A program made the position numbers and the translations under genes. This document shows, one piece after another, positions 14,117 through 59,010 of a stretch of 64,000 nucleotides of DNA. The stretch is taken from NCBI GenBank assembly GCA_037176725.1, contig JAZBRS010000049.1, forward strand, positions 35,890,001 through 35,954,000. Direction: 5' to 3'. The stretch comes from Posidonia oceanica (Eukaryota > Streptophyta > Magnoliopsida > Alismatales > Posidoniaceae). A model generated the notes under the pieces. It did no database searches, was not told the DNA's origin, and saw nothing but the letters and a program-made list of their open reading frames with translations. Within the stretch, counting starts at the first letter, position 1. The number at the start of each line of letters is the position of its first letter.

Positions 14117-14835
14117 GACTACGACTGGAAATTACATTTTGATTTTCTATTAAGGCTTTCATATTCAGAGGCAAAAGGAAAACTTCCATGAAAATCATCT
14201 TATTATACCTAATTGTACCTTAAAATACATGGAATACAACTATAAAAAGATGTTTGAGTGGAAAAAAAAATAAAAAACTAAAAACTGTAAAATGAACCAG
14301 ATTCTTAAAGAAATGCATACCTTTTTCATGGAATTCTACTTCCAAATCAGAGTGCATTTAAGACAATTAGCCACTCTAGAAGTAGGAGCCAATAGACGTC
14401 TATCAAGAGCTTAGTCTTCATTTTAGTATACTGAAATCATGAAATCAGACACCACTACATCAGGATACAAAAAATATTCGAGCCAACCATTGAACACAGA
14501 TGATTGGGAGAACAATCTGAACAACATGTTTAATGAACCAGTAATTATGTAATATCTTTTACATCCACCAGTTCAATATATTGCTCTACTTTAAATGAAG
14601 TGAAGCGCAACTCCCTTTTGTAAGTTTACTTAAGGAATTCTGAATAGCAAAAAAAAAGAAGTTAGTAGATGTGTCAGGTAATCAAATAAAGGAAATAATT
14701 ATTAATGGCCTAAAGCACAACTTATACAACATTTGTAAATAGTGAACCTTTTTACATTAACGAAATTTTTTCATACTTAACACTGCATGATATTTATAAT
14801 TAACTATTCTTTGTTCAGAAATATATATATATATA
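14117..14835. other. Intergenic region before the MULE
   Basis: A/T-rich sequence with no recognisable gene. It ends in a (TA)n run at 14821-14835 that abuts the left terminus of the giant MULE. Confidence 0.5.
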
Positions 14836-15470
14836 GACAAATTTTCTAGTAGGACACGACCTTAAATAGCTTAAGTAGGACCTTCAATCTAGACTGTTTG
14901 ATCTGTTTCTGACAGTTTTGGTTATTTTGAGTTTAGTAATTATTTTATTAATTTTTCATATTGTATTGTTGAATCTATCGCATGAAACTAGCAACAAACG
15001 TGGGTAACTGTTTTCAATTTTTTTTTTTTAGAAATAATTTGATTTAATATCCTCGAATTTTCGAGAACCAGTTATGGAAGTTTTGAAACCGTGTTGGTTG
15101 GTTGATTTGATAACACGTATCTCACAGCAACACATACTACCATCTCCCTCTCTCGCTTCTTCGCCGTATACCGCATCATCCGCTCCGTCCGCTTCTCCAC
15201 CGACGACTCCCCCAACTCCATCCCCCTCGCCCGACCCGCGTCCAACACTCCGCCGCCGCCGCCGTCCCATCCGACCCCCTCCCCTATTTCGGCATCAGCA
15301 ATTCTCTCCAGGAGAGGGCAAAGGACATCCTGATCGTCGTCGTGGGGCTGCTGTTCGAAGTTGGATAAAAGAAGCAAAATAGGATTTGATTTACTTTCCA
15401 GATTTGGCTAGATGTCATGCTAGATTTTGAGATTTACATAAGAACCTAATACTGCATCTTGAACTTCTTT
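14836..15470 (+). repeat. Left terminal inverted repeat of the giant MULE (635 bp)
   Basis: It matches the reverse complement of 29902-30727 from the terminus through to the inner end gaacttctt (15461-15469). The G/C-rich middle (15140-15350) contains one copy of the unit that is tandemly repeated in the right TIR, plus a (CCG)n stretch around 15245-15275 that the right TIR lacks. Confidence 0.85.
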
Positions 15471-16165
15471 GCTTCAACAATTTTCGCATAAAAATTGAAT
15501 TTGAATTAAATAGATGAATAATTGAAGATGTGTGTACCAAGTGGTAAGACATTGTTTGGAAACCCTTTTGGGATTAGAGATTCTATTGTTTCCCCTTGGA
15601 TGATTGATGTAACATTCGTAATTACTATTTTATTACTATATACACATATACAAACAATAGTATATATATAAGTTTCTATTTGTTTCTAGTAAATATTGAT
15701 TGAATCAATGTAAAAAATGATACATTCTAATCTAATTTTTAAAATATGTTATAAAAATACTTGATCAAAATTCAATTATCTAGTGTGCATGTATCAGTAA
15801 TCATTTTTTCAGTAATTACTATTTTTTTATAGTATGCATGGTTCAGTAATTACTGTGTTATAAATGTATTGTTATTACTGAATTATGCATGTATCATTAC
15901 TTTTTGGTTCTAAATTACGCACTCTAGTAAATTACGGATTTTAAATCTTTTAAATTTCGTAATAACCTTCAGTATGGGGATTCAATTTCTAGAATGCGAT
16001 ATTCGCAATTATGATTTTTTTTTAATTAAAGGATTTTACAACTCAGTAGTAACATTTTTGTTTTATTTAAGTAATTACTATTTTGTATGTTGATATTGTA
16101 GTTTTTATTTCTAGTAATTAAGATTGTAATAGATCCGTTTTTGTTTATGTTCTTTATTTCTCAGG

Positions 16166-18742
16166 ATGAAAAAAAAAAGAAAAGCTGTAGTTGTAGTTGA
16201 TGAATGTTTAGTTAGTAGTGAAAGTTTACAAGACAATACCATTGAAATTTATCAAGATAGTGATAAACCTTATGTTAGCAAGACATTTGAGAATTTGAAA
16301 GATGTGAAGAATTTTTATTTGTCTTATGGTGGTCGAGTTGACTTCTTTGTTCGTTCTCATACCACGAAGTTTCGATTAAACAAGAATACTAAGCAGAAGT
16401 TTTGTTCGCAAAAGTTATATGTATATTCTAAGGAAGAATTCTACAAGAATGTTGATGAAGGTCATAATGAGAAAATTATTGTTAAATATAAGAGAAAGAT
16501 TGCTCTTACAAGGGTTAGCTGTCAGGCAAAGATAAAAGTTCAGCTAGATACAAATTATGAAAAATAGGTAGTGGTTGAATTTGTTGAGGATAATAATTAC
16601 CAACTTGTATCCCCGTCGAAGTTGCATTATTTGTCTATAAATAGGTCTATTTCAGTTGCCAAATGATTGAAATTAGAAGATTTACAAACCTTTAGCCTAC
16701 GAATATTTCGGCAAATTAATGTTTTGAGCCAACAATCGGGTGGGTACAATAAGATGGGATCTACTGAAAGGGATATTCGTAACTTTCAGCGAAATTATAG
16801 AAAAGAAACAAATGATTATGATGTTCAATTTGTCTTAGATCATTTCCAACTGCAAAAGGATGCTGATGATAGATTGTTTTATGCAGTAGAGAAAGATGAT
16901 CATGGACGATTGAGATATTGTTTTTTGTTTGATGCTATATCTAGACAGGATTTCGAGATATTTGGTGATGCAGTTACTTTTGATACTACATATCAAACTA
17001 ATACTTATTGTTTAGTATTTGCTGTTTTTTATAGTGTTAACCATCATTGAAAAACCACAAGTTTTGATTGTGCATTTATATCAAATGAATCTCAGTCGAC
17101 ATTTGAATGGGTCTTTTCTAAATTTATTAAATATATGCGTCAAGCAACCCCAGCAATCATTACAGATTAGGATCCAGCAATGAATGCAGTAATTACTAAA
17201 ATTTTTTCTTGTACTGTGCATAAGTTTTGTGCATGACATATTATACATAAAATTTGTGATAAGCTTGGTGGTATTGCTACAAAATTTGATGCCATTTCTG
17301 AATTCAATTCAATAGTATATGATTCAGAATTTTCTGATGAATTTGAGGAAAGATGGAATGCATGCATTGAGAAGCATAATATGACCAAGAACAAGTGGTT
17401 GTCTATTTATAACATTAAAGAAAAGTAGGTACCAACTTATACAACAAACTCATTCTTTGCTAGCATGACAACACAAAGAAGTGAAAGTTTACATGCTTTC
17501 ATTCAAAGTGTAATATCTCACCACAGTTCTTTACTAGAGTTTGTGACTCGTTATGAGGATTGTTTAAAGAAGCAACGTGAAACAGAGAATATTTGTGATT
17601 TTGAGTCGAAACACAAAAATGTCAAGTTGTGTAGTGGTATTCCAATAGAGGAACAGATTCATGGTTTGTATACAAGGAGAATGTTCAATTTCTTCCAAGA
17701 AGAATTGAATCGAAGCTTTATGTATAATGTATATCCTTTCAAAGCAAATAATCCACATGCTGAGGTAAACTTTCTAGTATTTCTACCATATTATGCATGA
17801 ATATTGTGTTAATACGTTACTAAATTCCTTATTAGAGATATTTTTTCACTTTTATGTACTGTTGTAATAATTACAGAATTTTCGTTTTTATAGGGAAAGG
17901 ACACATTTATAGTATCGAAGAAGGGTGATGACGACAATTGCAGGCTTGTTTTTTCTGAATCAGATAAGACAAAGTCGAAATGCAGTTGTTGTATATTTGA
18001 ATTCAAAGACTACTCATGCAGACATTTGATTGTCTTCATGATATATTTCAAAATTAATCTCCTATCAGAGCATATTATTTTGAAGAGATGGTTTCATTCT
18101 ATTAAGGATGGTATAAAATTGGACATATACTTAAACAATAATAGTTTGAGTAAAGGTTCTCAATCCATGGAAGTCATGGAGTTGGGGAAACAAGTTGCTA
18201 ACCATGTTGTTCATGGTAAGGAGTTCTATAAATATGCCAAGCAACACATGAAGCTGATGATAAAGGAGATGGATAAGATACAAATTTCCGCAATTATTAA
18301 GTTGAACGATCATAGCAAGAGATCAGAACATCGTTCAATTACTCGATCTTTCACTCATAACATTAGACCTTCTACAGACTTAATTATTTTACCTCATTTG
18401 CATGTCAAAACCAAAGGAAATGGTAAAAATAATAGGCCTAAGGGTGAAGGTGTGCCACGCATTCAATCTGATCCAGAGAAGCGTGCGAAAGGAAAGCAAT
18501 GTAAGACATGTGGAAAACACAATATTAACCATAATTCTAGAAATTATCTTGACAAAAGCATAGGTTTGTCAAATGTTTCATTAAGATATTTAATTGTTTT
18601 TCGTGTCTATTGTATTTATTTTGAATCAATTCATATTTTTGACAATTTTGTTTGTATCATGTTTCGCAGTGTTGGACCTAAAGAAGAAGGCACAAGCAAT
18701 GGCTCACGGACGGATAATAGTGATTTGCAACATTCTAATTAA
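16166..18742 (+). pseudogene. FAR1-type MULE transposase (FAR1 domain, DDE core, SWIM, zinc knuckle), six in-frame stops
   Basis: The transposase cuts and joins the element ends in the nucleus. One frame runs from the ATG at 16166 to 17764. It begins with a FAR1-like DNA-binding region (KTFENLKDVKNFYLSYGGRV at about codon 37). The MULE core follows, with catalytic-site-like Asp at codon 273 (VTFDTTYQTN) and Asp at codon 334 (ITD before DPAMNA). An intron (17765-17893) separates a SWIM zinc finger (CSCCIFEFKDYSCRHLIVFM, near 17980-18040) and a terminal zinc knuckle whose last Cys is Tyr (CKTCGKHNINHNSRNY). A possible second intron is 18564-18669; that stretch can also be read through. The premature stops are at 16565, 16664, 17048, 17168, 17234 and 17426. 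There are no frameshifts up to 17764. The FAR1/FHY3 transcription factors derive from this family, but the stops and TIR context identify a transposon. Confidence 0.85.
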
Positions 18743-18885
18743 TTTCATTTATTTCAAACAAACTTTAATTTAGCAAATTCTTTATTCATAGTTGTTTTTG
18801 TAGACTTTTTATGTAAATTAAGTTTTATAATATATGATGGTAATTGCAGTGTAGCATGTATTTTTTGTCTACAATATGATATTGA

Positions 18886-19165
18886 ACTGAGTAAGAATCA
18901 TTGATGTATTTATCATGATAATAGTATAGAAGAATATCAAGGTTTACAATCGATAAATTACTGAATGTAACAGTGATTTATGAAAAATAATTACTGAAAT
19001 ATGAAAACAACTAATAAAACGCAAGTTAGTAATTACTGGTGTTAGTTGTCTACTTACGGTGATATATGATTGCAAATCTGGTTGCATGTTTCAAGACATG
19101 TGATGTCATTATATTTTTGTCTACTATTCCACTCAAATAACAATTTATCACCTATATGAAGATAA
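18886..19165. repeat. Direct duplicate of 21838-22130 (ULP-gene 3' segment)
   Basis: Both segments start with gaactgagtaag and share tcattgatgtatttatc, ttactgaatgtaac, a GTAATTAC-rich part, ctacttacggtgatatatga and tccactattc-type sequence, in the same order and orientation. The duplicated part includes an exon of the minus-strand second gene with its donor (gtaagtag on -). The first copy is decayed. Confidence 0.75.
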
Positions 19166-19386
19166 TTACAGTATTATTTCTTCCATTTATTTCTTCCATA
19201 ATCTCACTTCTTAATTTTCTTCAATTGTAAATCGACTGTCATTTATTGTTTATCATCAGTAATTTACTGAATGTAATAGTGACAAATGAAAAGTAATTAC
19301 TAAAATGTGATAATAACTAATAAAACGCAATCTCGTAATTACTGATGTACATAAATTCAGTACATACAAATATTATATATAACACA

Positions 19387-19470
19387 CAGCATTCTGCTAT
19401 TATTAGGTTATTATATGTTAATGCAACACAGCATTCTGCTGTTATTAGATTATTATATGTTAATGCAGCC
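19387..19470. repeat. Two-copy 42-bp tandem repeat
   Basis: cagcattctgct followed by ttattatatgttaatgca begins at 19387 and again at 19429, with two or three substitutions. Confidence 0.75.
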
Positions 19471-20343
19471 AAACATAAGCCAATGCATTGTAAGCCAATG
19501 TATGTAACATTTAAGAGAGGTTAAGTAAATAACGACATGGATATATCAGCAGAACAAAAAACTTGATGAAAAACGACTGGTTTAGTCACTAGGGTAAATT
19601 GAGGCACAATTGGACCTTATAGTCTTAAAATAAATAATGCAAAGGATGACTATCTACACTGGGAAAGAGAACATAATTATGTTTAGTGAGAATAATTTAA
19701 TTTCCAGTGACACACCTAACATAGGGAACTATTTAATGTTAGACGAACAACAAACGAAAAAAAATTTTCACTTAAAAGAAGTCAATGGCTCAACAGTACA
19801 TCAGACAGACAAAAAAAGGAACTTTGAATAGTCTAATTGTGTTTAAAAAAGATGGGGAAAACCTTAAATGTTACTATTTCTTTTTCCACAGTAGAAAAGA
19901 GCTTGGATAAAGAGGTCCAGGGCACGGGAAATTTTTAGGCAATAAATATTGAGGTGCTTCAAGTTATTTTATATAAAACGTAATTCAGAGGTTTTTTTCC
20001 CTTTCGTTACAGTAAACAATCCCCAAGTGTAACACTAACAAAATCTCAAAATGGTCCTCCTTATCGTTGACACAAAATAAAATTAGGCAAAGTGTCGGTC
20101 CTTTTTTGAACAATAAAGCGAGATATCATTTCGTTAAAAACCAAAAGAAAAACGAACAGGAACAAGAAAAAAACGGGTCTATCCATCATATAGGCTTAAA
20201 TATATGTACGCCCGAGGGCAATGAATGCCATGCCATGATGAGTGCTTTAATATATGCTTAAATACCATGATGCATGATAGAAACAAAACCATGCAAGTGG
20301 GAAAAATGGCCTAATAGAACAAAATCGACATACTGAAATAAAA

Positions 20344-20560
20344 CGGTCTACCGAATTGTCCGATACTAGACACAAAACAGAGAACCCGGTCGACCATACA
20401 AAAACGATAGGCCAAGTCAAGGAAATTCGACCGATCGGTCCAAAACGGTCAACCGAATCAAGGAATATCGGTCGACCGTTTTGTATCGATCGACCGAACC
20501 AAGGACTTCTGAGGAGGCCTCAGGGTACATTTCGGTCGAACGGTCGACCGAACAAACCGA
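20344..20560. repeat. Cluster of cggtcgaccg palindromes
   Basis: Perfect cggtcgaccg occurs at 20469-20478 and 20541-20550. Degenerate forms (ccggtcgacca, gaccgatcggtc, acggtcaaccg, gatcgaccg, cggtcgaac) fill the rest of a roughly 215-bp stretch. It is CpG-rich in an otherwise A/T-rich element. Confidence 0.65.
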
Positions 20561-21588
20561 GAAAACTACAATGAAGAAGAAATCGCCGGAGGAAAACAAA
20601 CGAATCTATGCAAACAATGATCGGTAAAACAAGAAGGAATACCCACGACCAAAACAAGACAAACTGGATGCAAAATGGTGGAGTGGATCGATCCACCCAC
20701 CTCCATGCCACATCGCCGGAAACCAGTGGATTCGCCGGTCACCGCAAGGGTTGGGAACTCGCAAAGCACGGTTGTGGTTCATTGTGGAGGCTAGAGGAGA
20801 CCCAGAGGATGCCATGGATGCAAATGCAGCAATAAAAGAAAAACGAACAGGAACAAGCCAGCATATAGTCTCCAAAGAGAAACACAAAAAGTTTACAACA
20901 TGTAACACAAAGAAACAAAAACAAACAAAACAAGAGAGAGTATCTTAAGCCTCATCCATCAAATTGCAACTAAAATCTCCAGCCATGCAGCTAGGCAGAG
21001 TCTGGTTCTGATAATTGATAAGCTTTTAATCCATGAAATCACTAACTGTGCTAAATGATTGAGCTGCAGTTTTTCCACTGCTAATCAATGTTCTTTTGGT
21101 AGGTTCCCTACGAATACAAATTCGTCAAAGGACATCAAGTTCTGAAAAAGATTTTATACTCTGTAAATCCATTCAGCCAAACCCATAAAATGATTACTTC
21201 TGTAGACAACGTAATAAATTTTGTTTAACTCTAATTGATAAAAATTCTGTCATTGCCGATCATTTTCAATTCCTGTCTTCTTCAAGATTTCTACAACCAT
21301 CTCTGTTCGTATTCTCGACATGTTTGATCTCCAAAATGTAAAAGGCTTCTTTAAGGCAATACACTCACATACTTTCAGAAGAAATATCCCACAGTCTAGA
21401 CTTTCTAGAACTTACTGAGAGTAATCAGAAACGAATGTAAGATACCAATCGTCAATGTCCATGATAAGATACTTTAATCTCTGAAAGAACACCTTTACCC
21501 ACATAAATACATCATAGTTTGTAGTTTGTTAGTATATAATGTAATTTGTATTTATATATTTCAATCATAGTATACACAATAATACTGA

Positions 21589-24500
21589 TTACATAATTGT
21601 TTCTTGTATTAACATTAAATGAAGGAATATTTTACTTACCCATCTTCTCACTTCAGTGTTGTGTTTTCTTTTATCTTTTATTGAGTTGTATGACTTGAAG
21701 ACTTTATTGGAGATGTTTACATCCAGTAGATGCCAATGAGTACCTGAGTGGAGTGGAAACAACCAATGGTCTACCTTTTTTATGTCTTCTTGTAGTACAT
21801 TCATTTCTTTATCAACTTGTTTCCACTCCTTTAGGGGAACTGAGTAAGGATCAATGGATCATTGATGTATTTATCTTGATAACATTTTAAAAGAAAATCA
21901 AGGTTTTTCTTCAGTAAGTTACTGAATGTAACTGTGAATTATGAAAAGTAATTACTGAAAATTAGAAATAATTAATAGAACTCAATAAAATAATTACTGA
22001 TGTTAAAGGTCTACTTACGGTGATATATGACAAATTTGATTGCGTCTTTCAATACAGGTGATGTCATTATCTTTTTGTCCACTATTCCACTCATAACAAT
22101 TTATCACCTAAATGAATATACTATTAGCAATATGACATTTATATTTTTTGAAATAACTCATTATGTATTTATTCGTACCAATCCTTGTATTGCTTGCCCA
22201 AACAGTAGTTTCTTTATATCATTCCCCATGACATTGTCATCTCCAACGTCGAAGTAATTCTTCCCACTATAGATAAGATAACTTACACATATGAGTATAT
22301 ATGATTGTTACTCAGTAGATATGTAATTACTGAGAAAACAGAATTAATTCTTGTTGTTATACTAATGGAAAGGAAAATCAGTAAATATTAACTTACAACT
22401 TATTAACATGAGAAAGAAAATACTCCACCAAGCTGGATTCCTTAATAGCAATCTGTCATTTTTTCCCTAGTTTGCTGCAAATAAGAATAATAATTTTAAA
22501 AATTATTAATGTTATAGTTATGTAGGTGTGTAAGTTAAATGATTACCTTCTTCTTTGTGTCGTTTTGTGGCTTTGAACTTGTTGCCATTCTTTTGTTGAC
22601 TTTCACTTTGTTGCATAACGAACTGATGAATGCATCATCGCTATCTTCTTCAACTTTCTTTTTTCCTTTTTCTATTTTCTCAACAGTTTGCTTCTTATCT
22701 ATAACTTCATTTTTAACAATCACAAATAGTTGTATTGCTAAGCACTCTTCATATCTAATTGGCATGGAATCTTTCTTCGCATAATTTTTCAGGATTTCTA
22801 CTTGTTTTTCCAAGTCTTTGTTTCTTTCTAGGTGCTTCTCATTTTGCAAGTTCAAATTATCATTTTTTTTGTTCTTTTCCTTTAATTGTTCCTCCAAGTT
22901 CTGGATTCTATTGTCCTTCTCCATCATTGATTCTTCGATCATTCTATGTTTGGTTTCAAATTAGCAATTTTATTTTTCATCTCATCAAAAATTTCAGTAT
23001 TCACTGAAGAATATATTGATGTTTCTCTAGTCTTGTAGTTTTCTAGAGGACCGGTAATAATATTACTAATCAGTGATCCGTCTAACAATGTTGTCACCTA
23101 CATTATAAATACCAATTAGTATATGAAATTGTTTACAATGTCATACATTTGTATAGTGTAATTCAGAATGTTAGACATTTGTTGTAACTTTATTGATTTC
23201 ATAAACATCATAGATTAAATTCAGTAAAATTGATTCCAGTAAAACTGTTATGTAAAACTTACTTGTGCTAGTCTAAATATATGACGCTTTTTGTCTTGCG
23301 TCCATCTCTTTATTAATGGCATTTCAAATGATTGATTGGAAATACACATACCCATGATTTCCCACACCCAAACCTATAAAAAAAACACAATATATGGGAA
23401 ACAATGTCAATAGAGCAGCATTTCCTAATTTAAAAGCAATGTAAAAGATTAGAATCAATTGAGACTTACGTAAAATGCCATTGTACATACAGTTACATAA
23501 CTGAACGCCTTCTCGCTATGCTTTCTCTTTCTCTTTCACACAACCTCAGAACATCTACTCATATTTGCGAAAATCTTTTTCAGAATTGTTTCAACCCAAT
23601 TGTACTTCTCTAGGACTTCTCCATCCTTAATATACCCGATCAGATTCGAGCTCAAAGTGTATCCAAATTGTGGAAGTAACAAGGTAGCAAATAACAGTAA
23701 AACCCAAAGCATGACTATATCACTAGTATTGTTATTTCCTTCTTCAATAAGTTCTTTTATTTTTGCCACAAGATCATCTCTTTTAATTGTTGCTTTTTCA
23801 TTTCCAAATATCCTCAATTTGAATTTGTTTCCTCCTTCTATCTTGTCATCTTTTGATTTTATCTCAATTTGTCCATTTGAAACTCCCAATATTTGCACAA
23901 TATTTTCTATGATGAGCTGAACTGCTACACCACCTATCCTAAAAGTCTCATTCCCTAAATATGACATGTACAGATCATCAAGTAATTGATTGTCTACATA
24001 CATATAGGGAAATTTTAGGAAATGACCAAAAGAAGTCCTTAAAATGCAGTGGACATGTTCTTCGTTGAGGTTAAGACCTCGGACTGAATCTCTATACCAT
24101 TTGGGAAAACATCTTTGCCGAACCCAATAATATGCTGCATTCATAAATCAGTAATTTACTGATATGTAAATAACTAAAATAAGATAATAATATTCACATG
24201 TTTTTTTATGAAGATTTGTTCTTACCATCGGGTTCTCCTCTTCCTTCCTCTATGGATTGTAGTCTCAAAATTTTATGAATTAAGAGGTAGTAAGTGTAAC
24301 ATGTTAGTATCAGTAATGTTTTATTTATTCAGTAATTACGTATGAAATTATTATTCAGTATGTCGAATGTGATTACTTACCTTCTGTTGCCTTTTCCTTC
24401 TCCTCTATTTCTATACTTGAAGGCCTTTTTTATGTTAATTTCTTAAGCCGCAAGTATGTACCTTTCTAGGAATGACTTGGTCCTTTTGTTTCATATAGTA

Positions 24501-25503
24501 TGTTAATAACACTGATTTTACTGTAAATAGTTGTAGATTTAATTAAATGAGATTTACTAGAAATAAATTTTCACCTTCTGTATTTTTTGATGATTGAACT
24601 GACTCTTGTGTCAATCTAAGACTGAAGGTTGGATTGACAGTTGAAGCTATTTTTAAAACAAGAATCATTAACGTGTTAGTATTTATTTTCAGTTGTCTAC
24701 TGAATATTACTTTTTCAATGTTTACAGTTTTTATAATAACATACCACATTATTGAATTTATTATATTCATCATATACTCTTATGATTGTCATTACATAAA
24801 TATGTAATTACTGATAAATATGTTTTTTTTTACTGAAAAAATATACCTTTCATTTAAATATAAATTTCTTGTAATCAATGACTCCTTTTTTTTGAAGTTA
24901 TAAGAGTTATTTACTGATTTTTATACACATAGATTTACTGAGCTTCTTTGTACTCAATGCCTTTATATAACAGTTATTTACTTATTATTTTATACATGGA
25001 TTTACTGAAAATTTAATATTCACGCTTTGTAATATAGATCACTGATTTACTTGATTTTTTACGTATTATAATCAAAGGAAAAGGAATGGTTACCTTCCAC
25101 CGTGTCTCGAACATTTTTAGTGTCATCGATCGATCTTTTGCTTCGATGGCGAGGGTGTCTGGCATCTTTGAGATGTTTTTCTACATTTGTTGTCGACGGC
25201 GATGCTGTTTGTAGTCACAGGAAAGTCGACGGAGATGCTGTGGATGCCGATTCTTTGTTGCAGGGAAGAGAGCCGGCGAGCACCACCCTGTTTGCCGTCG
25301 AAGGCAAGTCGACGAAGAGTGACGGCGTAAGGGAAAGTGAAGGCACAAGGGAGAGTGGCGACGAACAATGGATGAAATAAGGAAGGAGTAGGTGGAAAAG
25401 AAAGTAAGATAAATGATGTAAAGATTACTGATCGACTTAATATGGTTTTTACGAGATTTTTTGGGAGAAATACAATCATACTGTCTAATAAAAAACAACC
25501 CAA
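21589..25503 (-). pseudogene. MULE second gene, left copy: mobile-domain-like / coiled-coil / ULP1-like, multi-exon
   Basis: Reading on minus, a putative first exon (25503-about 25083) is followed by short exons ending in GT donors near 24572, 24384 and 24229. A 202-codon open frame follows (24144-23536). Its start (VRGLNLNEEHVHCI) and middle (FRIGGVAVQLIIENIVQILG) resemble the N-terminal region of plant transposon proteins joined to ULP1, DUF1985 or plant-mobile-domain type. Next come an exon at about 23372-23262 and a charged coiled coil at 22942-22535. ULP1 (C48 SUMO protease) like exons lie at about 22262-22150, 22105-22020 and 21804-21625. The last contains GTHWHLLDV, with the catalytic His. 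The position of the catalytic Asp reads Asn (SYNSI), and I could not place the catalytic Cys. A TGA interrupts the frame at about 23541, where the right copy has AGA. Exon borders are my estimates. Confidence 0.6.
22237..25481 (-). repeat. Left arm of a large inverted duplication inside the MULE
   Basis: This 3.2-kb segment is the inverted copy of 25588-29892, about 3.3 kb after subtracting the nested hAT. Homology runs from catctccaacgtcgaag (outer end) to gagattttttgggagaaat (inner end). The arms are separated by a unique spacer of about 105 bp (25482-25587). Introns and exons are both duplicated, so this was a DNA-level event. Confidence 0.9.
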
Positions 25504-25587
25504 GACATCTGAACCATTGTTTTTTAAAAGAATGAAGTTTTTATAACAGCGCTATTTTCAAAAATGAGTAGATTTCGTCATTAAAGG

Positions 25588-28500
25588 AAACATGTGATTG
25601 TAATTCTCCCAAAAAATCTCGTAAAAACCATATTAATTCAATTAGTAATCTTTACACTATTTCTCTTACTTTCCTTTCCACCTACTCCTTCCTCATTTCA
25701 TCCATTGTTCGCCACCACTCTCCCCTGTGCCTTCACTCTCCCTTGCGTCGTCACTCTCCGTTGACTTGCCTTCGACGACAAACAGGGTGGTGCTCGCAGG
25801 CTCTCTTCCCTGCAACAAAGAATCGACATCCACAGCATCTCCGTCGACTTTCCTGTGACTACAAACAGCATCGCCGTCGACAACAAATGTAGAAAAACAT
25901 CTCAAAGATGCCAAACACCCCTCGCCGTCGAAGCAAAAGATCGATGGACGACACTAAAAATGTTCGAGACACGGTGGAAGGTAACCATTCCTTTTCCTTT
26001 GATTATAATACGTAAAAAATCAAGTAAATCAGTGATCTATATTACAAAGCGTGAATATTAAATTTTCAGTAAATCCATGTATAAAATAATAAGTAAATAA
26101 CTGTTATATAAAGGCATTGAGTACAAAGAAGCTCAGTAAATCTATGTGTATAAAAATCAGTAAATAACTCTTATAACTTCAAAAAAAAAGGAGTCATTGA
26201 TTACAAGAAATTTCCGATATTTAAATGAAAGGTATATTTTTTCAGTAAAAAAAAATACATATTTATCAGTAATTACATATTTATGTAATGACAATCATAA
26301 GAGTATATGATGAATATAATAAATTCAATAATGTGGTACGTTATTATAAAAACCATAAACACTGAAAAAGTTATATTCAATAGACAAACTGAAAATAAAT
26401 ACTAACACGTTTATGATTCTTATTTTAAAAATAGCTTCAACTGTCAACCCAACCTTCAGTCTTGGATTGACACAAGAGTCAGTCCAACCATCAGAAAATA
26501 CTAAGCCTGGCAACGGGTCGGGTTGAGTCTACCTATATCTAGACCCAGACCCATCTTTTTTCACGAGTCCGGGTCTAGATCTAGACCCACAATCTAAAAT
26601 CAAGACCCAGACTCAGACTCATGAAGATAATGGATGTGGTCCAGTCTCGAGTCTAATGGATCCTCCAACCTATAATTGATTTTCTTGAGTTGGTATGTGG
26701 CAAAACCATTTGTAGTTAATTAACTTCATAGTTCCAATGATCTCTCCTCAAAAGTCGACAACGAATATCCTCATTATGACTATCTCAAACTCTTGAGCAG
26801 AAGAAAACTTATTTGTTTACACAAAAAAGAACTGAAGCATACCTATAAGTGCAAATTGTTTCTTTGCTTGGACAATACAAAAGAAAGATTATTGGTATTA
26901 GTTTGATTTTATGGTAAAAGAAATCAACATAATGGACCGATGCAAAATGAGGCTTCCATGTGTCTATAAATCCCATGAACTTATTCATCCTTACAGCCAC
27001 AAGATCACACAAATTAAATATAGATGGTAAAAAAATACCATTTTCACTAGCAACAATGAAACACTAATGCTTACACTATTGCTGTGACACGAAGGTAAAC
27101 TTGTACTTTTGACAAAAGACTAATGTAACACTCTATGTGAAACAAGTCCCAATAATATTCATAACCTCAAAGATTTTAAATAAAGTCTCCTGATGACCAA
27201 TAAAAAGAACAACCCATAGTATTTTCAAGAGAAAAATATTAGAAAATCCACCAATAATGGGCACAACACTAACACCAATCATCCTCATCCAAATCAACCT
27301 CCACTAAACCTTCAATATCACTACCAGAATCATATAATATATTATATATATCGGATCCATGGGTTTGAGTATTTTTGGACCCAGACCCACCCGATAAATG
27401 AGCAAGTCTAACAGGTCTGGGTCTATGGGTCTCATTTTCAGGACCAGACCCACACTTCACGGGTCGAGACCCACGGGTCTTGGTCCAAACCCGACCCATT
27501 GCTTCGCCTAGAAAATACAAAAGGTGAACATTTATTTCTAGTAAATCTCATTTAATTAAATCTACAACTATTTACAGTAAAATCATTGTTATTAACATAC
27601 TATATGAAACAAAAGGACCAAGTCATTCCCAGAAAGGTACATCCTTGTGGCTTAAGAAATTAGTATAAAAAAGGCCTTCAAGTATAGAGACAGAGGAGAA
27701 GGAAAAGGCAACAGAAGGTAAGTAATCGCATTCGACATACTGAATAATAATTTTGTACGTAATTACTGAATAAATAAAGCATTATTGATACTAACATGTT
27801 ACACTTACTACCTCTTAATTCATAAATTTTTGAGACTACAATCCATAAAGGAAGGAAGAGGAGGAACCCAAGAGAACCTGATGGTAAGAAGATCTTCATA
27901 AAAAATATGTGAATATTATTATCTTAATTTGGTTATTTACATATCAGTAAATTACTGATTTATGAATGCAACACATTGTTGGATTCAGCATATATGTTTT
28001 CCCAAATGGTTTATAGATTCAGTCCGAGGTCTTAACCTCAACGAAGAACATGTCCACTGCATTTTAAGGATTCCTTTTGGTCATTTCCTAAATTTTTCCT
28101 ATATGTATGTAGACAATCAATTACTTGATAAACTGTGCATGTCATATTTAGGGAATGAGACTTTTAGGATAGACAGTATAACAGTTCAATTCACCACAGA
28201 AAACATTGTGTAAATATTAGGAGTTCCAAATGGGTAAATTGAGATAAAATCAAAAGATGACAAAATAGAAGAAGGAAACAAATTCAAATTGAGGATATTT
28301 GGAAATGAAAAAGTAACAATTAAAAGAGATGATCTTGTGGCAAAAATAAAAGAAATTATTGAAGAAGGAAATAACAATACTAGTGATATAGTCAAACTTT
28401 GGATTTTACTGTTATATGCCACCTTGTTACTTCCACAATCTGGATACACTTTGAGCTCGAATCTGATCGGGTATATTGAGGATGAAGAAACCCTAGATAA

Positions 28501-29892
28501 CTACGATTGGGCTGAAACAATTCTGAAAAAGATTTTCGCAAATATGAGTAAGTGTTCTAAGGTTGTGAGAAAGAGAAAGCATGGCGAGAAGGCGTCCAGT
28601 TATGTAACTGGATGTACAATGGCACTTTGCGTAAGTCTCAATTGATTCTAATCTTTTACATTGCTTTGAAATCAAGAAATGCTGCTCTATTGACATTGTT
28701 TCCCATATATTGTGTTTTTTTTACAGATTTGGGTGTGGAAAATCACGGGTATTTGTATTTCCAACCAACCATTTGAAAGACCATTAATAAAGATATGGAC
28801 ACAAGACAAAAAGCGTCATATATATAGACTAGCACAAGTAAGTTTTACATAACAGTTTTACTGGAATAAATATTATTGGAATCAATTTTACTGAATTTAA
28901 TCTATGATGTTTATGAAATCAATAAAGTTACAACAAATGTCTAACATTCTGAATTACACTATACAGATGTACGACCTTGTAAACAATTTCATATACTAAT
29001 TGGTGTTTATAATGTAGGTGACAGCATTGTTAGACGGATCACTGATTAGTAATATTATTACCAATCCTCTAGAAAGCTACGAGACTGGAGAAACATCAAC
29101 ATATTCTTCAGTGAATACTGAAATTTTTGATGAGATGAAAAATAAAATTGCTAATTTGGAAACCAAACCTAGAATGACCGAAGAAGCAATGATGATGAAG
29201 GACAACAGAAAGCAGAACTTGGTGGAACAATTAAAGGAAAAGAACAAAGAAAATGATAATTTGAACTTGTAAAATGAGAAGCTCCTAGAAAGAAACAAAG
29301 ACTTGGAAAAGCAAGTAGAAATCCTGAAAAATTATACGGAGAAAGATTCCATGCCACTTGGATATGAAGAGTGCTTAGCAATACAACCATTTGTGTTTGA
29401 AAAAAATGAAGTTATAAATAAGGAGCAAACTGTTGAGAAAATAGAAAAAGGAAAAAAAAAAAAGTTAAAGAAGATAGTGATGATGCATTCATCAGTTCGT
29501 TATGCAACAGAGTGAAAGTCAACAAAAGAATGCCAACAAGTTCAAAGGCACAAAACGACACAAAGAAGAAGGTAATCATTCAACTTATACACCTACATAA
29601 CTATAACATTAATAATTTTCTGAAAAAATATTATTCTTATTTGCAGCAAACTAGGGAAAAAAATGATTCATTGCTACCAAGGAATCCTAGCATACCAGCT
29701 TGGTGGAGTACTTTCTTTCTCATGTTAATAAGTTGTAAGTTAATATTTACTGATTTTCCTTTCCATTAGTATAACAACAAGAATTAATTCTGTTTTCTCA
29801 GTAATTACATATCTACAGACTAACAATCATACATACTCATATGTGTAAGTTATCTTATCTATAGTGGGAAGAACTACTTCGACGTTAGAGAT
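25588..29892 (+). pseudogene. MULE second gene, right inverted copy, 3'-truncated and broken
   Basis: Reading on plus, this repeats the gene of the left copy: first exon (25590-25980), short exons, the mobile-domain-like region (27962-28645) and the coiled coil (29018-29515). It stops after a GKNYFDV-like segment (about 29873-29892), where it joins the right TIR directly, so the ULP1 catalytic exons are missing. Lesions include TAA codons near 28211 and 28232, where the left copy reads CAA, a stop near 29270, a frameshift in an A-run near 29452-29462 and a hAT in a coding exon at 26502. The right copy reads AGA where the left copy has its TGA, so the two copies carry different damage. Confidence 0.65.
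25588..29892 (+). repeat. Right arm of the large inverted duplication
   Basis: Counterpart of 22237-25481. The outer end gacgttagagatgac is immediately followed by the TIR inner end, which shows that the duplication replaced or abuts whatever lay inside the right TIR. Confidence 0.9.
26502..27510. mobile_element. Non-autonomous hAT element, 1,009 bp, 8-bp TSD gaaaatac
   Basis: The target duplication gaaaatac is exact at 26494-26501 and 27511-27518. The termini taagcctggcaacgggtcgg and (inverted) taggcgaagcaatgggtcgg form decayed TIRs, followed by subterminal gggtctagacccag-type repeats at both ends. No transposase is encoded. The homologous site in the left arm (24580-24587, gtattttt on +, i.e. 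aaaaatac on -) is uninterrupted, which proves the insertion and its borders. Confidence 0.92.
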
Positions 29893-29901
29893 GACGCTAT
29901 T

Positions 29902-30727
29902 AAGAAGTTCAAGATGCAGTATTAGGTTCTTATGTAAATCTCAAAATCTAGCATGACATCTAGCCAAACCTAGAAAGTAAATCAAATTCTATTGTGCTCC
30001 TTTTATCCAACCCCGAACAGCAACCCTACAACGACGACCAGGATGCCCTTCGCCCTCTCTCAGAGAGAATTGCTGATGTCGAAATAGGGGAGGGGGTCGG
30101 ATGATGCGGTATACGACGAAGAAGCGAGAGAGGGAGATGACAGTACAAGGGGGATGGAGTTGAGGGAGTCGTCGGTGGAAAAGCGGACGGGGCGGATGAT
30201 GCGGTATACGACGAAGAAGCGAGAGAGGGAGATGACAGTACGAGGGGGATGGAGTTGGGGGAGTCGTCGATGGAGAAGCGAACGGGGCGGATGATGCGGT
30301 ATACAGTGAAGAAGCGAGAGAGGGAGATGACAGTACGAGGGGAATGGAGTTGGGGGAGTCATTGGTGGAGAAGTGGATAGGGCGGATGATGCGGTATACG
30401 GTGAAGAAGCGAGAGAGGGAGATGACAGTATGTGTTGTTGTGAGATACGTATTAGCAAATCAACCAACCAACACGGTTTCAAAACTTCCATAACTGGTTC
30501 TCGAAAATTCGGGGATATTAAATCAAATTATTTCCAAAAAAAAAACTGAAAACAGTTACCCATGTTTGCTGCTAGTTTCATATGATAGATTCAACAGTAC
30601 AATATAAAAAATTAATAAAATAATTACTAAACTCAAAATAACCAAAACCGTCAAATACAGATCAAACAACCTAGATTAAGGGCCCTACTTAAGCTATTTA
30701 AGGTCGGACCCTACCAGAAAATTTACC
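29902..30727 (-). repeat. Right terminal inverted repeat of the giant MULE (826 bp)
   Basis: Inverted copy of 14836-15470, about 190 bp longer mainly because of a four-copy tandem expansion at 30098-30435. The outer end atttacc (30721-30727) is followed by (TA)n. Confidence 0.85.
30098..30435. repeat. 95-bp tandem repeat, about 3.5-4 copies, in the right TIR
   Basis: cggatgatgcggtatac begins at 30098, 30193, 30288 and 30383, exactly 95 bp apart, with few substitutions between units. The left TIR has a single equivalent unit. Confidence 0.92.
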
Positions 30728-31651
30728 TCTATATATATATATATATATATACACAATCCTTACAAATCCTCCTCTACAGTCCTTGCTAATTTCTTATTAA
30801 AATTCAGAAATTCAATTTTATAGAGATTACCTTTTTAGTTGATCTCCACTCTCAATTTTACAGGACAACACTTATTCTCAATCATTTATTTTTCTGATGA
30901 ATTCTCAATCATTTGTTGATGAACCTGAAAGTGTATTACAAATTAAGGTTCATTACATACATATATCATGAAAAAAAAATGTGAGATTTATAAATATTTT
31001 AGCTGAGCAAATAAATATTCCATTTTATAAATTTACTCTAGCCATGAAAGCAAAAGGCAAAAAGAAGCTAGTAGTGTATCTAATAGTGGAGGCAAAAAAG
31101 TAAGAGAAATAACTATAAATAAACTAAAAAGCAATATCATTTTGCAGTAATAAACCTGGTTCTTAAACCTCTGAAGTTCCAATCTCACATCCACTACTAT
31201 TTATATGCAGATCCTGCATAAGTAAATCGATTATGATAAAGTCTAACCTTGGTACTTTTATTAGAAGATCCTAAGAGATCTTCATACTTTACTACTCTTG
31301 GGGGCTTGTATCATAGGATTCAAGAACCACAACTAAATTATTCTCTTCGAGGTAAGAAATAAATAAATGTATTTTTCTAGAGAGTGTAGAATAAGTTAAT
31401 GTAAGCACTAAATAGCGGATCATACGAAAATCATTGCATGCATACAAATCTACAAATAGAAATAACATAAACACACCTGCTAGATATGAGTATGAATCAT
31501 TAATATAAACACACCTGCTTGACACATATCAGATGGACTTCTAATGATTTTTTTCAGCTTGGTGTATAAACATACCTGCTAGATATGAGTATGAATCATT
31601 GAATTTATGTCTGATTACATAAAATAAATTATCATTACATAAAATAAATTA

Positions 31652-48110: not shown

Positions 48111-51086
48111 TGTAACATCCGGGAATTCATTTCCTTGTAATTGTGTTTGTTTAATGAATTCCTTAACTTTGGTCAGGTGTTATTGGCCTCGCAGGCCTCA
48201 CTTGAGTTGTTATGGGTCCCATCTGTGGTTTGTGTAGGTTTTCACATGTATTGTTGTGGTGGATTCCCACTTGTGGTGGTTGGTGGGACAGATTGTGGTC
48301 TGGTCCTGTGTTTCTCTCTTTCTCTCCTTTCCTCTCTCCTTTTCTTTCTCCCTCTCCCTCCTTCCCTCTCTCTCTCCTTCCCACCCCCTCCTCACGTCCC
48401 TCCCCCTCCTCTTTTCCTTCCCCCTTCCCCCGACGCGTGCGGATTCTTCTCCTCCTTCAGCCGACTCGTGCCCTCTCTTCCTCCCTCTCGTGCCGATCCT
48501 CCTCCTCCCCCTCTCCCCACCCGTCTCTCGCCCCCTCCTTCCTTTCCCTTCCTCCTCCTTTCCCCCTTCCTCTCCCTCCCGTCCTCTCCTTTTTCCTCCT
48601 CTTCCTCTCCTCTGTTGGCAGCGGAAGCGTGGTGGTGGCCGGCGTGCGGTGGCTGGCGGTGGTGCGGCGAGCGAGCTCCGGTCGTCGTCCCGGTGGAACG
48701 GCGTGCCCGTGTGCGGCGTGTGGAGCTTGGTGTGCGCGTGGATCGCCGGTAGACGGAGGTTGTCCTTCTGTCCTAAGGTATATGTCTCGCCTTAGGAGTC
48801 TATTTATTTAGAATTTGTCTTGTATGTGTTTCTTGTCATGATTTGTATGTTATATTTGAGTTTGACAATTTTTAGAGATTTATATGCATTTAGGCGAATT
48901 TAATTGGCTTCAGTTAGTTTATAGTTTGAATGTGGTTTCTGTCGTTTGATGAGGTTGAATACTCTCAAATGGTTTGAATATGATTTAATTGTGTGTCTTG
49001 CCATATTTATATGCTATGGTAGAGGTTTGGTAATTTTTAGAGATTTATTGTGGTTTTTGGCCGAATTTATGGTCTGAATGACTTAAATGCTAGAATTGTG
49101 GTTTCTAGTGGATTTCGGTGTTTTGGGCTTCGGATTGAGGCATTTGTGATATATTTGTGTTACTTGAGCTGAGACGTTCGTTTGTATGTGTTGCACGCTT
49201 GGTTTGGCGTGGATTTATAGTGTTTTGGGGTTTTTATAGAAATCGACTAGATTATTGGATTTTCGGTATTTTCTCGTGTTGTGTGTCTCGGAATGCCATA
49301 TCGAGGGTATGGTTGCGTTCCTTGTTTTATTCCTGAGATTCCGGTATATGGCACGCTCGTTTTAGAGTGTGATTCGGATATTTGGGGTTTTAAGTCGGTT
49401 CTTTAAATTTTCTGAATTGGCCTGGAACGGAGCCCTGTTGGTAGAATGAAGTTCCATTTTTCCCTTGTCCGGAGCACCGTTTTTGGAACGGAGTCCCGTT
49501 TTCCCCTGGTCTGGAGTGTCGGTCCAAAACGGAGCGCTGTTTCAGTGCTGATTTGTGAACGTCTGTCTTGATCCGACACTCCGGTGAATGGTGTGTCGAA
49601 TCAGAGGCTGAGTGTTTTCTCAGTAAATGTTTTCCAATGTGGTTTCCCTTGGTTGATTTTTGGGCTTTTTGTGCTTTAGCCCATGATATTTGATAAATGT
49701 TTTTAAAGAGATTTCTGAGGAAAAATATGAATGGTTTGCAAATGATTTTGTCGAGGTTTTCCGTGGTCGAAAATTTAGGAGTTGTGTTGGCTGGACCCGG
49801 GAATATGACGGCGTTCCTGGTGTGTCGCACACTTCGCTTGGGTTGACGTTTGGGGGTCAGAGTGTCGGCCGTACCTAGCGGTATCGTAGTAGCGGACTCG
49901 GGAGGTATGATATTCCTGCGTAGCTGGACGTGATATCCTAGTTGTTACGGGCACCGGGACTTGTCTTATTTTGGGTGTCGGTTGAGCCTAAGGGTTGGAG
50001 ACTCTAGTGGTTCGGGGCACTGGTGCTGGTTGAGCCTAGGGGTTGGGGCCTCTAGTGGTTCGGAGCACTGAGTTGAGGTCGCTGTATATTAGGCGTGTCC
50101 TGTGGTTTGTCCTGAGTGAGGACAGCTTGTCTAGTTGGGGTGAGTAGCTTTTCCTAGTGAGGGATCGCTTTTGAGGCGTCTCTAGTGACGAGATGTCGGG
50201 ACGGATACGCTCCTTCACAGGGCGGGTGTTCGTGGTAGTGCAGTGAGCTGCAGGGGTGAGTTCTTGGCTATTGTTTGAGGCCAGATCGGTTGCTTGACGC
50301 CAGGCAATACGATCAGTTGTGGTTTTGTGTCCGTAGGGCTGTGTTTTGTTTGTTGCTGGCTGTATTAGGCCTTGAGCTTTGCTTGAGCTTGGTTTTTGTG
50401 AGTTTTGCTGTTGTTTAGGCCATATTGGGCAAGTTACTTTCCGCCTGTGTATGGTGTGAGTTTGTGGTTTGTGTTTTGGATTGTATTAGGCCAGATGTTT
50501 TTCCCGCCTAGTTGTGGCGTGTGGCTTTGGTTTGAGCTTTGGGCCGGTGGGTCATTATATTGATTGTGATTTAGTTTTGCGAAGTATTTCCGCATTGTCT
50601 TGGCCGGTGGGTCGAGTGTTTTCCCAGCCTGAGGGGTTGGAGGTCTTTGAGTGGTTTTGAGGTTTGGGTCGGTGGGCTGTGGTTTTGTATATATATTTTT
50701 GTAAACGTCTGTCTTCCTCGGTTTTAGCTTATGGACTTTGGGAAGGGTGTTTTATTGATTATATTGTTTATTGTAGACCCAGATTTTGGGGTTTTATCGG
50801 TTGTGCCATATTTAAGGTTTTACGTCGTTTCTCGCTTGGTTTTTGTGAGGTGTGTGCTGGGTGACGATTTCTAGGTCACTCACGTGTGCTTTGTGTGGTT
50901 TGCAGGTGCAGATGATTAGCTGGTTTGAAGTATAGTGCATATAGTGGGGGTCACGTAGTTATCCACTGCAGGTTCCTAGCATTGATATTTGTTGTTAGTC
51001 CAGTAGTTTGTTGTAAATATTGTATTTAATTAAGTTTTAAATTTGTTGGACTTTTGGTTTTATTGGTAGCGACTTGGGTCGTTACA
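48111..51086 (+). repeat. 5' LTR of the gypsy element (2,976 bp)
   Basis: Starts tgtaacatccgggaattc and ends gggtcgttaca. It includes a roughly 300-bp pyrimidine-only-like tract (48300-48610) and a G/C-rich part after it. Long open frames across the tract are compositional, not genes. Confidence 0.93.
48300..48612 (+). repeat. Long pyrimidine (CT) tract in the LTR
   Basis: Nearly uninterrupted C/T-rich sequence (tctctcctttcctctctcc-like) on +. The homologous tract in the 3' LTR is at about 56175-56510, with length and unit differences. Confidence 0.85.
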
Positions 51087-55984: not shown

Positions 55985-58900
55985 TGTAACATCTGGGAAT
56001 TCATTTCCTTGTAATTGTGTTTGTTTAATGAATTCCTTGGCTTTGATCGGGTGTTATTGGCCTCGTGGGTCCCACTTGAGTTGTTGTGGGTCCTATCTGT
56101 GGTTTGTGTGGGTCTCCACCTGTATTGTTGTGGTGGACTCCCACTTGTGGTGGTTGGTGGGACAGATTGTGGTCTCGTCCCTGTGTTTCTCTCTCTCTCT
56201 TTCCTTTCCTCTCTCTCTTTCTCTCTCTCTCTCCCTCTCACTCCTTCCCTCTCTCTCTCTCCTTCCCACCCCCTCCTCACGTGCCTCCCCCTCCTCTTTT
56301 CCTTCCCCCTTCCCCCGGCGCGTGTGGATTCTTCTCCCCCCTTCAGCTGACTCGTGCCCTCTCCTCCTCCCCCTTGTGCCGATCCTCCTCCTCCCTCCTC
56401 CTTCCCTTCTCCCCACCCGTTTCTCGCCCCCTCATTCCTTTCCTTTCCTCCTCCTTTCCCCTTTCCTCCCCCTCCCGTCCTCTCCTTCTTCCTCCTCTTC
56501 CTCTCCTCTGTTGCCAGCGGAAACGTGGTGGTGGCCGGCGGTGGTGCGGCGAGCGAGCTCCGGTTGTCGTCTCGGTGGAGCGGCGTGCCCGTGTGTGGCG
56601 TGTGGAACTTAGTGTGCGCGTGGATCGCCGGTGGACGGACGTTGTCCCTCTGTCCCAATGTACACGTCTCGCCCTAGGAGCTTATTTATTTAGAATTTGC
56701 CTTGCATGTGTCTTTTACCATGATTTGTATGTTATATTTGAGTTTGGCAATTTTTAGGGATTTATATGCATTTAGACGAATTTAATTGGCTTCGGTTAGT
56801 TTATAGCTTGAATGTGGTTTTTCACCGTTTGATGAGGTTGAATGCTCTCAAATGGCTTGAATATGATTTAATTGCGTGTCTTGTCATCTTTATATGTTAT
56901 GGTAGAGGTTTGGTAATTTTTAGAGATTTATTGTGGTTTTTGGCCGAATTTATGGCCTGAATGACTTAAATGCTAGAATTGTGGTTTTCCGGTGGATTCT
57001 GGTGTTTTGGGCCTCGGATTGAGGCGTTTGTGATATATTTGTGTTGCTCGAGTTGAGACGTTCGTTTGCATGTGTTGCATGCTTGGTTTGGCGTGGATTT
57101 GATAGTGTTTTGGGGTTTTTATAGAAATCGACTTGAATATTGGATTTTCGGTGTTTTCTCGTGTTGCGTGTCTCGGAATGCCATATCGTGGGTATGGTTG
57201 CATTCCTTGTTTTATTCTGGAGATTTCGGTATATGGCACGCTCGTTTTAGAGTTTGATTCGGGCGTTTGGGGTTTTAAGTCGGTTCTTTAAGTTTTCTGA
57301 ACTGGCCTGGAATGGAGCCCTGTTGGTAGAATGGAGTTCCGTTTTCCCCTGGTCTGGAGTACCGTTTTTGGAACGGATTTCTGTTTTCCCCTGAAGCACC
57401 GTTTTTGGGCGGAGCCCTATTTCCTATAGTGAAAAGGAACGCCGGTCCAAAACGGAGCGCTGTTCCAGTACTGATTTGTGAACCTTTGCCTTGATCCGGT
57501 ACTCCGGTGGATGGTGTACCGAATCAGAGGCTGAGTGTTTTCTCAGCAAATGTTTTCTAATGTGGTTTCTCTCAGTTGGTTTTTGGGTTTTTTGTGCTTT
57601 AGCTCATGATATTTGATAAATGTTTTCAAAGAGATTTCTGAGGAAAAATATGAATGGTTTGCAAATAGTTTTGTCGAGGTTTTCCTTGGTCGAAAATCTA
57701 GAAGTTGTGTTGGTTAGACTTGAAAATGCGACGGCGTTCCTGGTGTGTCGCACACTTTGCTTGGGTTGAGGTTTGGAAGTCGGGGTGTCGGCCGTACCTA
57801 GCGGTATCGTAACAGCAGACTCGGGAGGTATGATACTCCTACGTAGCTGGACGTGATACCTTAGTTGTTACGGGCACCGGGACTCACCTTGTTTTGGGTG
57901 TCGGTTGAGCTTAGGGGTTGGAGCCTCTAGTGGTTCGGGGCATTGGTGTTGGCTGAGCCTAGGGGTTGGAGCCTTTAGTGGTTCGAAGCATTGAGTTGAG
58001 GTCGCCGTATATTAGGTGTGTTTTGTGGTTTGTCCTGAGTGAGGACAGCTTGCCCAGTTAGGGTGAGTAGCTTTCCCTGGTGAGGGATCGCTTTTGAGGC
58101 GTCTCTAGTGACGAGATGCCGGGACGGACACGCTCCTCCACAAGGCGGGTGTTCGTAGTAGTGCAGTGAGCTGCAGGGGTGAGTCCCTGGCTACTGCTTG
58201 AGACCAGATCGGTTGCTTGGTGTCAGACAATACGATCAGTTGTAGTTTTGTGCCTGTGGGGCTATGTTTTGTTTGTTGCTGGCCATATTAGGCCTTGAGT
58301 TTTGCCTGAGCTTGGATTTTGTGAGTTTTGCTGCTGTTTAGGTTATATTAGGCTAGTTGCTTTCCGCCTGTGTATGGCGTGAGTTTGTGGTTTGTGTTTT
58401 GGGCCGTATTAGGCCAGATGTTTTTCCCGCTTAGTTGTTGCGTGTGGCTTTGGTTTGAGCTTTGGGCCGGTGGGCCATTATATTGATTGTGATTTAGTTT
58501 TGCAAGGTATTTCCGCCTTTTCTTGACAGGTAGGCCGAGTATTTTTCTAGCCTGAGGGGTTGGAGGGTTTTGAGTGGTTTTGAGGTTTGGGTCAGTAGAC
58601 CGTGGCTTTGTATATATATTTTTGTAAACACCTGTTTTCTCCGATTTTAGCTTATGGACTTTGGGAAGGGTGTTTTATTGATTATATTGTTTGTTGTGGA
58701 CCTAGATTTTGGGGTTTTACCGGTTGTGCCATATTTGAGGTTTTACGTCGGTTTCTCGCGTGGTTTTTGCGAGGTGTGTGCTGGGTGACGATTTCTAGGT
58801 CACTCACGTGTACTTTGTGTGGTTTGCAGGTGCAGATGATTAGCTAGTTTGGAATATAGTGCATATAGTAGGAGTCACGTAGCTGTCCACTGCAGATTTC

Positions 58901-59010
58901 TGACATTGATATTTGTTGTTAGTCCAGTGGTTTGTTGTAAATGTTGTATTTAATTAAGTTTTAAATTTGTTGGACTTTTGGTTTTGTTGGTAGCGACTTG
59001 GGTCGTTACT
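55985..59010 (+). repeat. 3' LTR of the gypsy element (3,026 bp)
   Basis: Matches 48111-51086 along its whole length with scattered, mostly transition, differences and small indels. The last base is T in place of the A at the 5' LTR end. Confidence 0.93.

Follow-up and report, generated by a model that had tools for sequence, protein, structure and literature searches.

Anti-silencing by VANC proteins of Arabidopsis VANDAL transposons is the closest described counterpart of the system considered here. VANC proteins are reported to carry the domains DUF1985 and DUF287 (Hosaka et al. 2017, PMC5735166). According to the same report, VANC21 binds the motif YAGTATTAY, which is dense in the noncoding DNA of VANDAL21 and often arranged in tandem repeats, and expression of VANC21 leads to removal of methylation from VANDAL21 (PMC5735166). 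The sites of VANC21 reportedly share one orientation, the targets of VANC6 are described as carrying AGTTGT[CA]C, and a 2022 meeting report refers to a still unpublished crystal structure of VANC21. According to a 2026 review, the VANC genes of some VANDAL elements include an Ulp1 domain (KIU) and act on motifs of their own (PMC13317346). Here, we describe a 64,000-nucleotide stretch of the seagrass Posidonia oceanica (contig JAZBRS010000049.1, positions 35,890,001 to 35,954,000), referred to as the window, with a degenerate Mutator-like element (MULE) whose noncoding DNA is strongly enriched in a short palindromic motif, GTAATTAC, and whose second gene includes an Ulp1 protease domain. All positions are those of the window.

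Results

Motif enrichment within the element

A preliminary description of the window had listed 15 copies of GTAATTAC in the MULE and seen none elsewhere. All 15 are present, the sole slip being a start given as 21949 instead of 21948, and the restriction to the element was confirmed, with 15 copies (15618 to 29808) in the 16-kb MULE (about 14801 to 30762) and none in the remaining 48 kb of the window. In 100 dinucleotide shuffles of the whole window, the word occurred 0.90 times on average and four times at most, i.e., none of the 100 reached 15. As about one copy or fewer is expected in the 48-kb flank, it is the enrichment within the element that constitutes the signal. Most tests were restricted to the part from 14801 to 25540, termed the nonredundant part, because three of the 15 sites are copied by a large palindrome (29801, 27759, and 26269 are the copies of 22323, 24332, and 24804) and further sites lie in repeat units; related repeat units are still included in this part.

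The nonredundant part contains 12 copies of GTAATTAC. Simulated sequences of Markov order 1, 2, 3, and 4 (300 runs each) contained means of 0.31, 0.26, 0.60, and 1.62 copies and maxima of 3, 2, 4, and 7, respectively, and 63 composition-matched palindromes occurred 0.27 times on average in the real sequence, with a maximum of three. With no word preset, the most over-represented 8-mer was AGTAATTA, with 23 occurrences versus 1.16 expected (z score of 16.9); the highest 8-mer z score in 120 simulations was 9.3, and four flank segments of the same length peaked at 5.3 to 8.1. The heptamer TCAGTAA was found 27 times versus 2.5 expected (z score of 14.2), and simulations of order 1 to 3 yielded at most 16 copies. 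For the full element and the 48-kb flank, the counts were 38 versus 4 for TCAGTAA and 23 versus 2 for the degenerate word YAGTAATTAY. AT-rich flank windows (68% AT, 4,500 bases) contained neither GTAATTAC nor TCAGTAA, whereas AT-rich windows of the element (12,500 bases) contained 15 and 38, respectively. One-mismatch forms of GTAATTAC numbered 12, compared to a mean of 7.6, a median of 8, and a maximum of 16 for the 63 matched palindromes; this excess is modest at most, and the exact sites are thus not the remnant of a much larger decayed set.

Form and placement of the motif

YAGTAATTAY, with the half-site TCAGTAA, is a better consensus than GTAATTAC. Among the 23 aligned AGTAATTA sites of the nonredundant part, a pyrimidine is present at position -1 in 20 and at position +8 in 22, and beyond YAGTAATTAY no strong signal is seen further out. 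The consensus may be viewed as two TCAGTAA half-sites in inverted orientation, separated by 0 or 1 base. Pairs with a one-base gap and both halves exact occur three times (19256, 21911, and 24148), whereas 180 simulations gave two at most. Gapless inverted pairs, with two mismatches allowed in total, occur four times; the maximum was one in simulations of order 1 and order 3, but order-5 simulations reached six, so that the real count is not exceptional against the latter. As read from the site listing, 10 of the 15 GTAATTAC sites include one full TCAGTAA half. The longer palindromic setting that had been proposed as usual did not hold: its 14-mer form TCAGTAATTACTGA has no exact occurrence, and the 12-mer CAGTAATTACTG has one. 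The known VANC motifs themselves do not fit the array, YAGTATTAY being found twice in the element and once outside and AGTTGT[CA]C not at all in the element and once outside.

With exon boundaries drawn by eye, 14 of the 15 GTAATTAC sites fall outside exons, which agrees with the location in introns and spacers stated previously; the exception is the site at 17189. Between 15470 and 25540, noncoding DNA contains 11 copies versus 0.21 expected and coding DNA 1 versus 0.08, and the corresponding values for TCAGTAA are 25 versus 1.25 and 2 versus 1.11. The sites are also clustered: 14 of 29 gaps are shorter than 60 bp, compared to 7.6 under random noncoding placement, a value reached in 0.15% of 2000 placements, with the sites of repeat units taken into the count. 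In both terminal inverted repeats (TIRs) of the element, GTAATTAC is lacking and AGTAATTA is present once (14935 and 30621), and the motif was not found in the insertion nested in the right palindrome arm.

Transposase and lineage of the element

Coordinates of the features are compiled in Table 1. The TIRs are evident from inverted matches of 14801-15229 with 30762-30336 (88.8%) and of 15135-15469 with 30240-29902 (85.9%), corresponding to lengths of about 670 bp (left) and 860 bp (right) at 86 to 89% identity. The left TIR seemingly has a single copy of the 95-bp unit that is tandemly repeated in the right one. In Pfam searches, the transposase gave a MULE match of 68.5 bits (cut-off 27.6), flanked by FAR1 at the N-terminal side (26.8 bits, cut-off 28.1) and SWIM at the C-terminal side (16.7 bits, cut-off 19.6); the match list comprised MULE, ZSWIM1-3, FAR1, and SWIM, and a MuDR-type N-terminal domain was not among the matches. 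A sequence search of the PDB with the transposase returned no relative at an E value of 1. Six in-frame stops interrupt its first exon (16565, 16664, 17048, 17168, 17234, and 17426); the copy is dead and unable to make intact proteins.

In published tabulations, the FAR1/SWIM domain set is listed for dicot and monocot Jittery MULEs and FAR1 is not listed for VANDAL, and the TIRs of the VANDAL group, where present, are given as 46 to 174 bp. Degenerate TIRs are described in a 2023 paper as a unique VANDAL feature that commonly co-occurs with VANC-related genes. Its TIRs set the element apart from typical VANDALs, and its transposase probably does so as well. As judged from the transposase domains, two of which score just under the cut-off, the element appears to be a degenerate long-TIR MULE of the FAR1/Jittery type, an assignment that forms part of the interpretation favored below and shares its probability.

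Second gene and candidate motif reader

The second gene lies on the minus strand, and its C-terminal exons match Ulp1 (PF02902) with 52.5 bits (E value of 7.8e-14, cut-off 20.7). The candidate reader of the motif is a 202-residue open reading frame (ORF) upstream of these exons, separated from them by exons that look coiled-coil-like by eye. Five protein relatives were found for this ORF and eight, including these five, for its alignment; the homologues of the exon show 61 to 85% identity, and the longest contig bearing a relative has 3,063 bases. No relatives were found in viral contigs or genome contigs, nor with the joined second-gene model as query. All six members of the exon alignment show a weak match to DUF1985 (PF09331), with a best E value of 0.00058. 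One distant match of the DUF1985-like region (P0008) covers 33% of the query at 35% identity, and its precomputed Pfam label, PF00252, is unrelated; this sequence is perhaps chimeric or organelle-inserted. DUF287 was not matched in the scanned portions, i.e., the 202-residue exon and the Ulp1 pieces. A sequence search of the PDB with the ORF alignment gave no relative, the best E value being 0.15 for apoptosis-inducing factor.

Repeats, palindrome, and neighboring features

The two repeat units at 18884-19217 and 19235-19370 carry three motif positions apiece, spaced by about 33 to 34 and 42 bp. The arms of the palindrome differ at 219 of 3288 aligned positions. In the palindrome (22236-29895), the second gene has its N-terminal part present twice, the copies reading outward from the center, and both copies are broken. 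Transcription through the palindrome would yield hairpin RNA directed against the element's own second gene, and Mu killer of maize is a comparable case of hairpin RNA. The insertion nested in the right arm, of about 1 kb, is missing from the left arm and is later than the palindrome; GGGTCGGGTT is found near both of its ends, and it looks hAT-like by eye.

The region from 19370 to 21200 is devoid of GTAATTAC and TCAGTAA and shows repeated words of the GGTCGACCG type by eye; TCGACCG occurs eight times in 14801-25540. The region is perhaps an insertion or a captured sequence. CpG content by region displayed no clear pattern. Elsewhere in the window, direct repeats of about 3 kb with 88.7% identity (48111-51085 and 55985-59009) flank gag and reverse transcriptase ORFs and probably represent a Ty3-type long terminal repeat (LTR) element whose LTRs are long, and an uninterrupted 425-residue ORF at 4912-6189 matches the small chain of ribonucleotide reductase (381 bits in Pfam) and is likely a host gene.

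Table 1. Features of the MULE and of its motif sites, in window positions
Feature	Position	Strand	Remarks
Left TIR of the MULE	14801-15469	+	Uncertain outer edge close to a TA run
Motif cluster upstream of transposase	15618-16118		GTAATTAC at 15618, 15812, 15846, 16071; TCAGTAA halves
Transposase pseudogene (FAR1-type, MULE and SWIM domains)	16142-18742	+	Sole coding GTAATTAC at 17189
Two repeat units (18884-19217, 19235-19370)	18884-19370		GTAATTAC at 19029, 19293, 19335
C-terminal exons of second gene, Ulp1 protease (Peptidase_C48)	21253-21860	-	Pfam PF02902
Motif-bearing repeat unit, third copy, within second gene region	21837-22170	-	GTAATTAC at 21948
Left palindrome arm: N-terminal part of second gene and introns	22236-25478	-	GTAATTAC at 22323, 24332, 24804
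202-residue ORF, candidate motif reader	23536-24144	-	Weak DUF1985 match
Tandem repeat	24899-25062		Period 67 bp, 2.4 copies; TTACTGA half-sites at 24911, 24935, 25002
Right palindrome arm: second, broken copy of gene part	25595-29895	+	GTAATTAC at 26269, 27759, 29801
Nested insertion in right arm	26502-27509		Motif-free; AGAAAATAC on either side (read from sequence)
Right TIR of the MULE	29902-30762	-	Includes the 95-bp tandem repeat
Tandem repeat in right TIR	30081-30430		Period 95 bp, 3.7 copies

Discussion

From what is directly observed, i.e., the motif enrichment, the clustered and mostly noncoding placement, the repeat units, the domain content, and the broken state of the copy, we consider it somewhat probable (roughly 55%) that the element is a non-VANDAL MULE bearing a self-recognition array similar to those of VANC systems and that its second gene is related to the Ulp1-bearing VANC genes. 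The preliminary description had proposed a VANC-like system with the product of the second gene as the reader. The weak DUF1985 match, the Ulp1 domain, the likeness of the motif, and its density lend this proposal partial support; the element itself, however, is not a typical VANDAL. The mostly noncoding placement of the sites, their density, and their partial location in repeat units agree with reported VANC targets. In the proposed mechanism, the noncoding DNA would have gathered YAGTAATTAY sites, with TCAGTAA halves standing singly or as inverted pairs with 0 to 1 bp between them, and the DUF1985-like part of the second-gene product would bind these sites. In a living family, the protein would bind the arrays in all family copies, and binding would lead to removal of host DNA methylation at the arrays and thereby keep the genes of the element active, in the manner of VANC21 on VANDAL21.

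Several observations weigh against this interpretation. The 202-residue ORF itself matches DUF1985 with only 13.8 bits (E value of 0.057), below the cut-off of 35.1, and is matched better by DUF4342 over 25 residues (18.9 bits, E value of 0.0017, cut-off 25); the latter match recurs in four of the six alignment members (best E value of 0.0013) and is, in our judgment, due to chance. The DUF1985-like and Ulp1 parts are linked into one gene by strand and order alone, two AlphaFold models were of low confidence (mean predicted local distance difference test values of 56.1 and 42.6), and a fold search of the PDB with the first of them gave no significant match. Exact half-sites occur on both strands, 10 on the plus and 17 on the minus strand. 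Helical periodicity is a feature of VANC targets, and the helical phasing of the sites is not significant here (9.5% of jitters reach it). Order-4 simulations reach the real TCAGTAA count of 27 (mean of 15.3), this model largely learning the motif itself. Moreover, the family-level reading is drawn from a single dead copy. Evidence for conservation of the motif between the element's own copies is mixed overall. When the palindrome arms are compared, mismatches affect 2 of 106 positions in motif columns versus 217 of 3182 elsewhere (Poisson probability of about 0.03), and among the related repeat units A, B, and C, the motif is favored in the pairs A-B (differences at 7/39 motif versus 33/97 other positions) and B-C (4/39 versus 36/95). 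The pair A-C shows no motif conservation (10/46 versus 55/280), and the fraction of whole arm sites that are identical (10 of 12) is not clearly different from that of background noncoding 7-mers (796 of 1089).

These mixed results would also fit a neutral origin, in which the motif has no function and was spread by tandem or segmental duplication of a few AT-rich noncoding units. Three sites are indeed palindrome copies, and others lie in the three related repeat units and the 67-bp tandem repeat; yet the aligned sites have little in common beyond the motif, and the 12 exact GTAATTAC sites are not swamped by decayed forms (12 with one mismatch, compared to the matched mean of 7.6). We regard this origin as unlikely. 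Binding by a host factor, e.g., a homeodomain protein, with the sites acting as enhancers of the element genes, appears a little less plausible still. Homeodomain proteins recognize a TAATTA core; with its fixed flanks, the palindromic TAATTA of the motif is reminiscent of a site for a homeodomain dimer, and one site cluster is located immediately upstream of the transposase. The specificity of the motif nevertheless exceeds TAATTA, given the pyrimidines at -1 (20/23) and +8 (22/23), the sites extend along the whole element, introns included, and TCAGTAA by itself is enriched (z score of 14.2).

Subterminal motifs bound by transposase are known from Ac/Ds and En/Spm, and the sites could likewise be bound by the element's own FAR1-type transposase for excision or autoregulation. 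Such sites would be expected close to the element ends, whereas GTAATTAC is missing from both TIRs, each with its one AGTAATTA, and is spread through the interior. We give this possibility the least credence, even though a FAR1-type DNA-binding domain is present just under the Pfam cut-off and the sites form a short, repeated motif specific to the element.

Returning to the self-recognition array, a broader and more tentative proposal is that sequence-specific anti-silencing of the VANC type extends beyond VANDAL, with a DUF1985-Ulp1 gene and its self-recognition motif operating on a long-TIR MULE of the FAR1/Jittery type. The gene and the array might have moved between lineages together or evolved twice, YAGTAATTAY being either homologous to or convergent on the VANC21 motif. 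If this is true, a rare and well-defined transposon counter-defense would reach beyond the VANDAL group and another testable protein-motif pair would be available; how dozens of scattered DNA sites can change transposon lineage along with a gene would become a question; and motif density would offer a sequence-only route to anti-silencing systems in plant genomes.

Comparison with known systems

As far as the systems are described in the sources cited, the element shares with the VANCs of VANDAL21 and VANDAL6 a second gene, in its case with a weak match to DUF1985, and a dense short motif in its own noncoding DNA, partly within repeat units. Unlike VANDAL21 and VANDAL6, it has a FAR1-type transposase, long TIRs, and an Ulp1 domain, and unlike the reported VANCs, it shows no DUF287 in the parts scanned. 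YAGTAATTAY equals YAGTATTAY with one inserted base; in a post hoc comparison, random 10-mers of the same composition came equally close to YAGTATTAY in about 0.1% of cases. In contrast to the VANC21 site as reported, the motif is one base longer and palindromic, has half-sites on both strands, and is known from sequence alone.

VANC genes that bear Ulp1 and have motifs of their own are already known, as are ULP regions in Jittery-like MULEs. In grapevine, a ULP sequence is described downstream of the transposase in some families of Jittery-like MULEs (Benjak et al. 2008, PMC2528002). The available text of that study mentions no motif array or anti-silencing role (PMC2528002); among the literature matches listed (titles and abstract beginnings), none reported such an array for MULEs of the Jittery type. 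The KIU genes are reported from VANDAL-type non-TIR MULEs, whereas the present element has long TIRs and a FAR1/Jittery-like transposase (PMC13317346, PMC2528002). Like KIU and Kaonashi as described, it encodes Ulp1 and the transposase on opposite strands and has element-specific motifs (PMC13317346, PMC2528002), and like the grapevine elements, among which two Jitvine families measure 11.9 and 14.4 kb, it combines a Jittery-like transposase with ULP (PMC2528002). The system of this element is thus probably a relative of the known VANC anti-silencing strategy, installed on a different kind of transposon.

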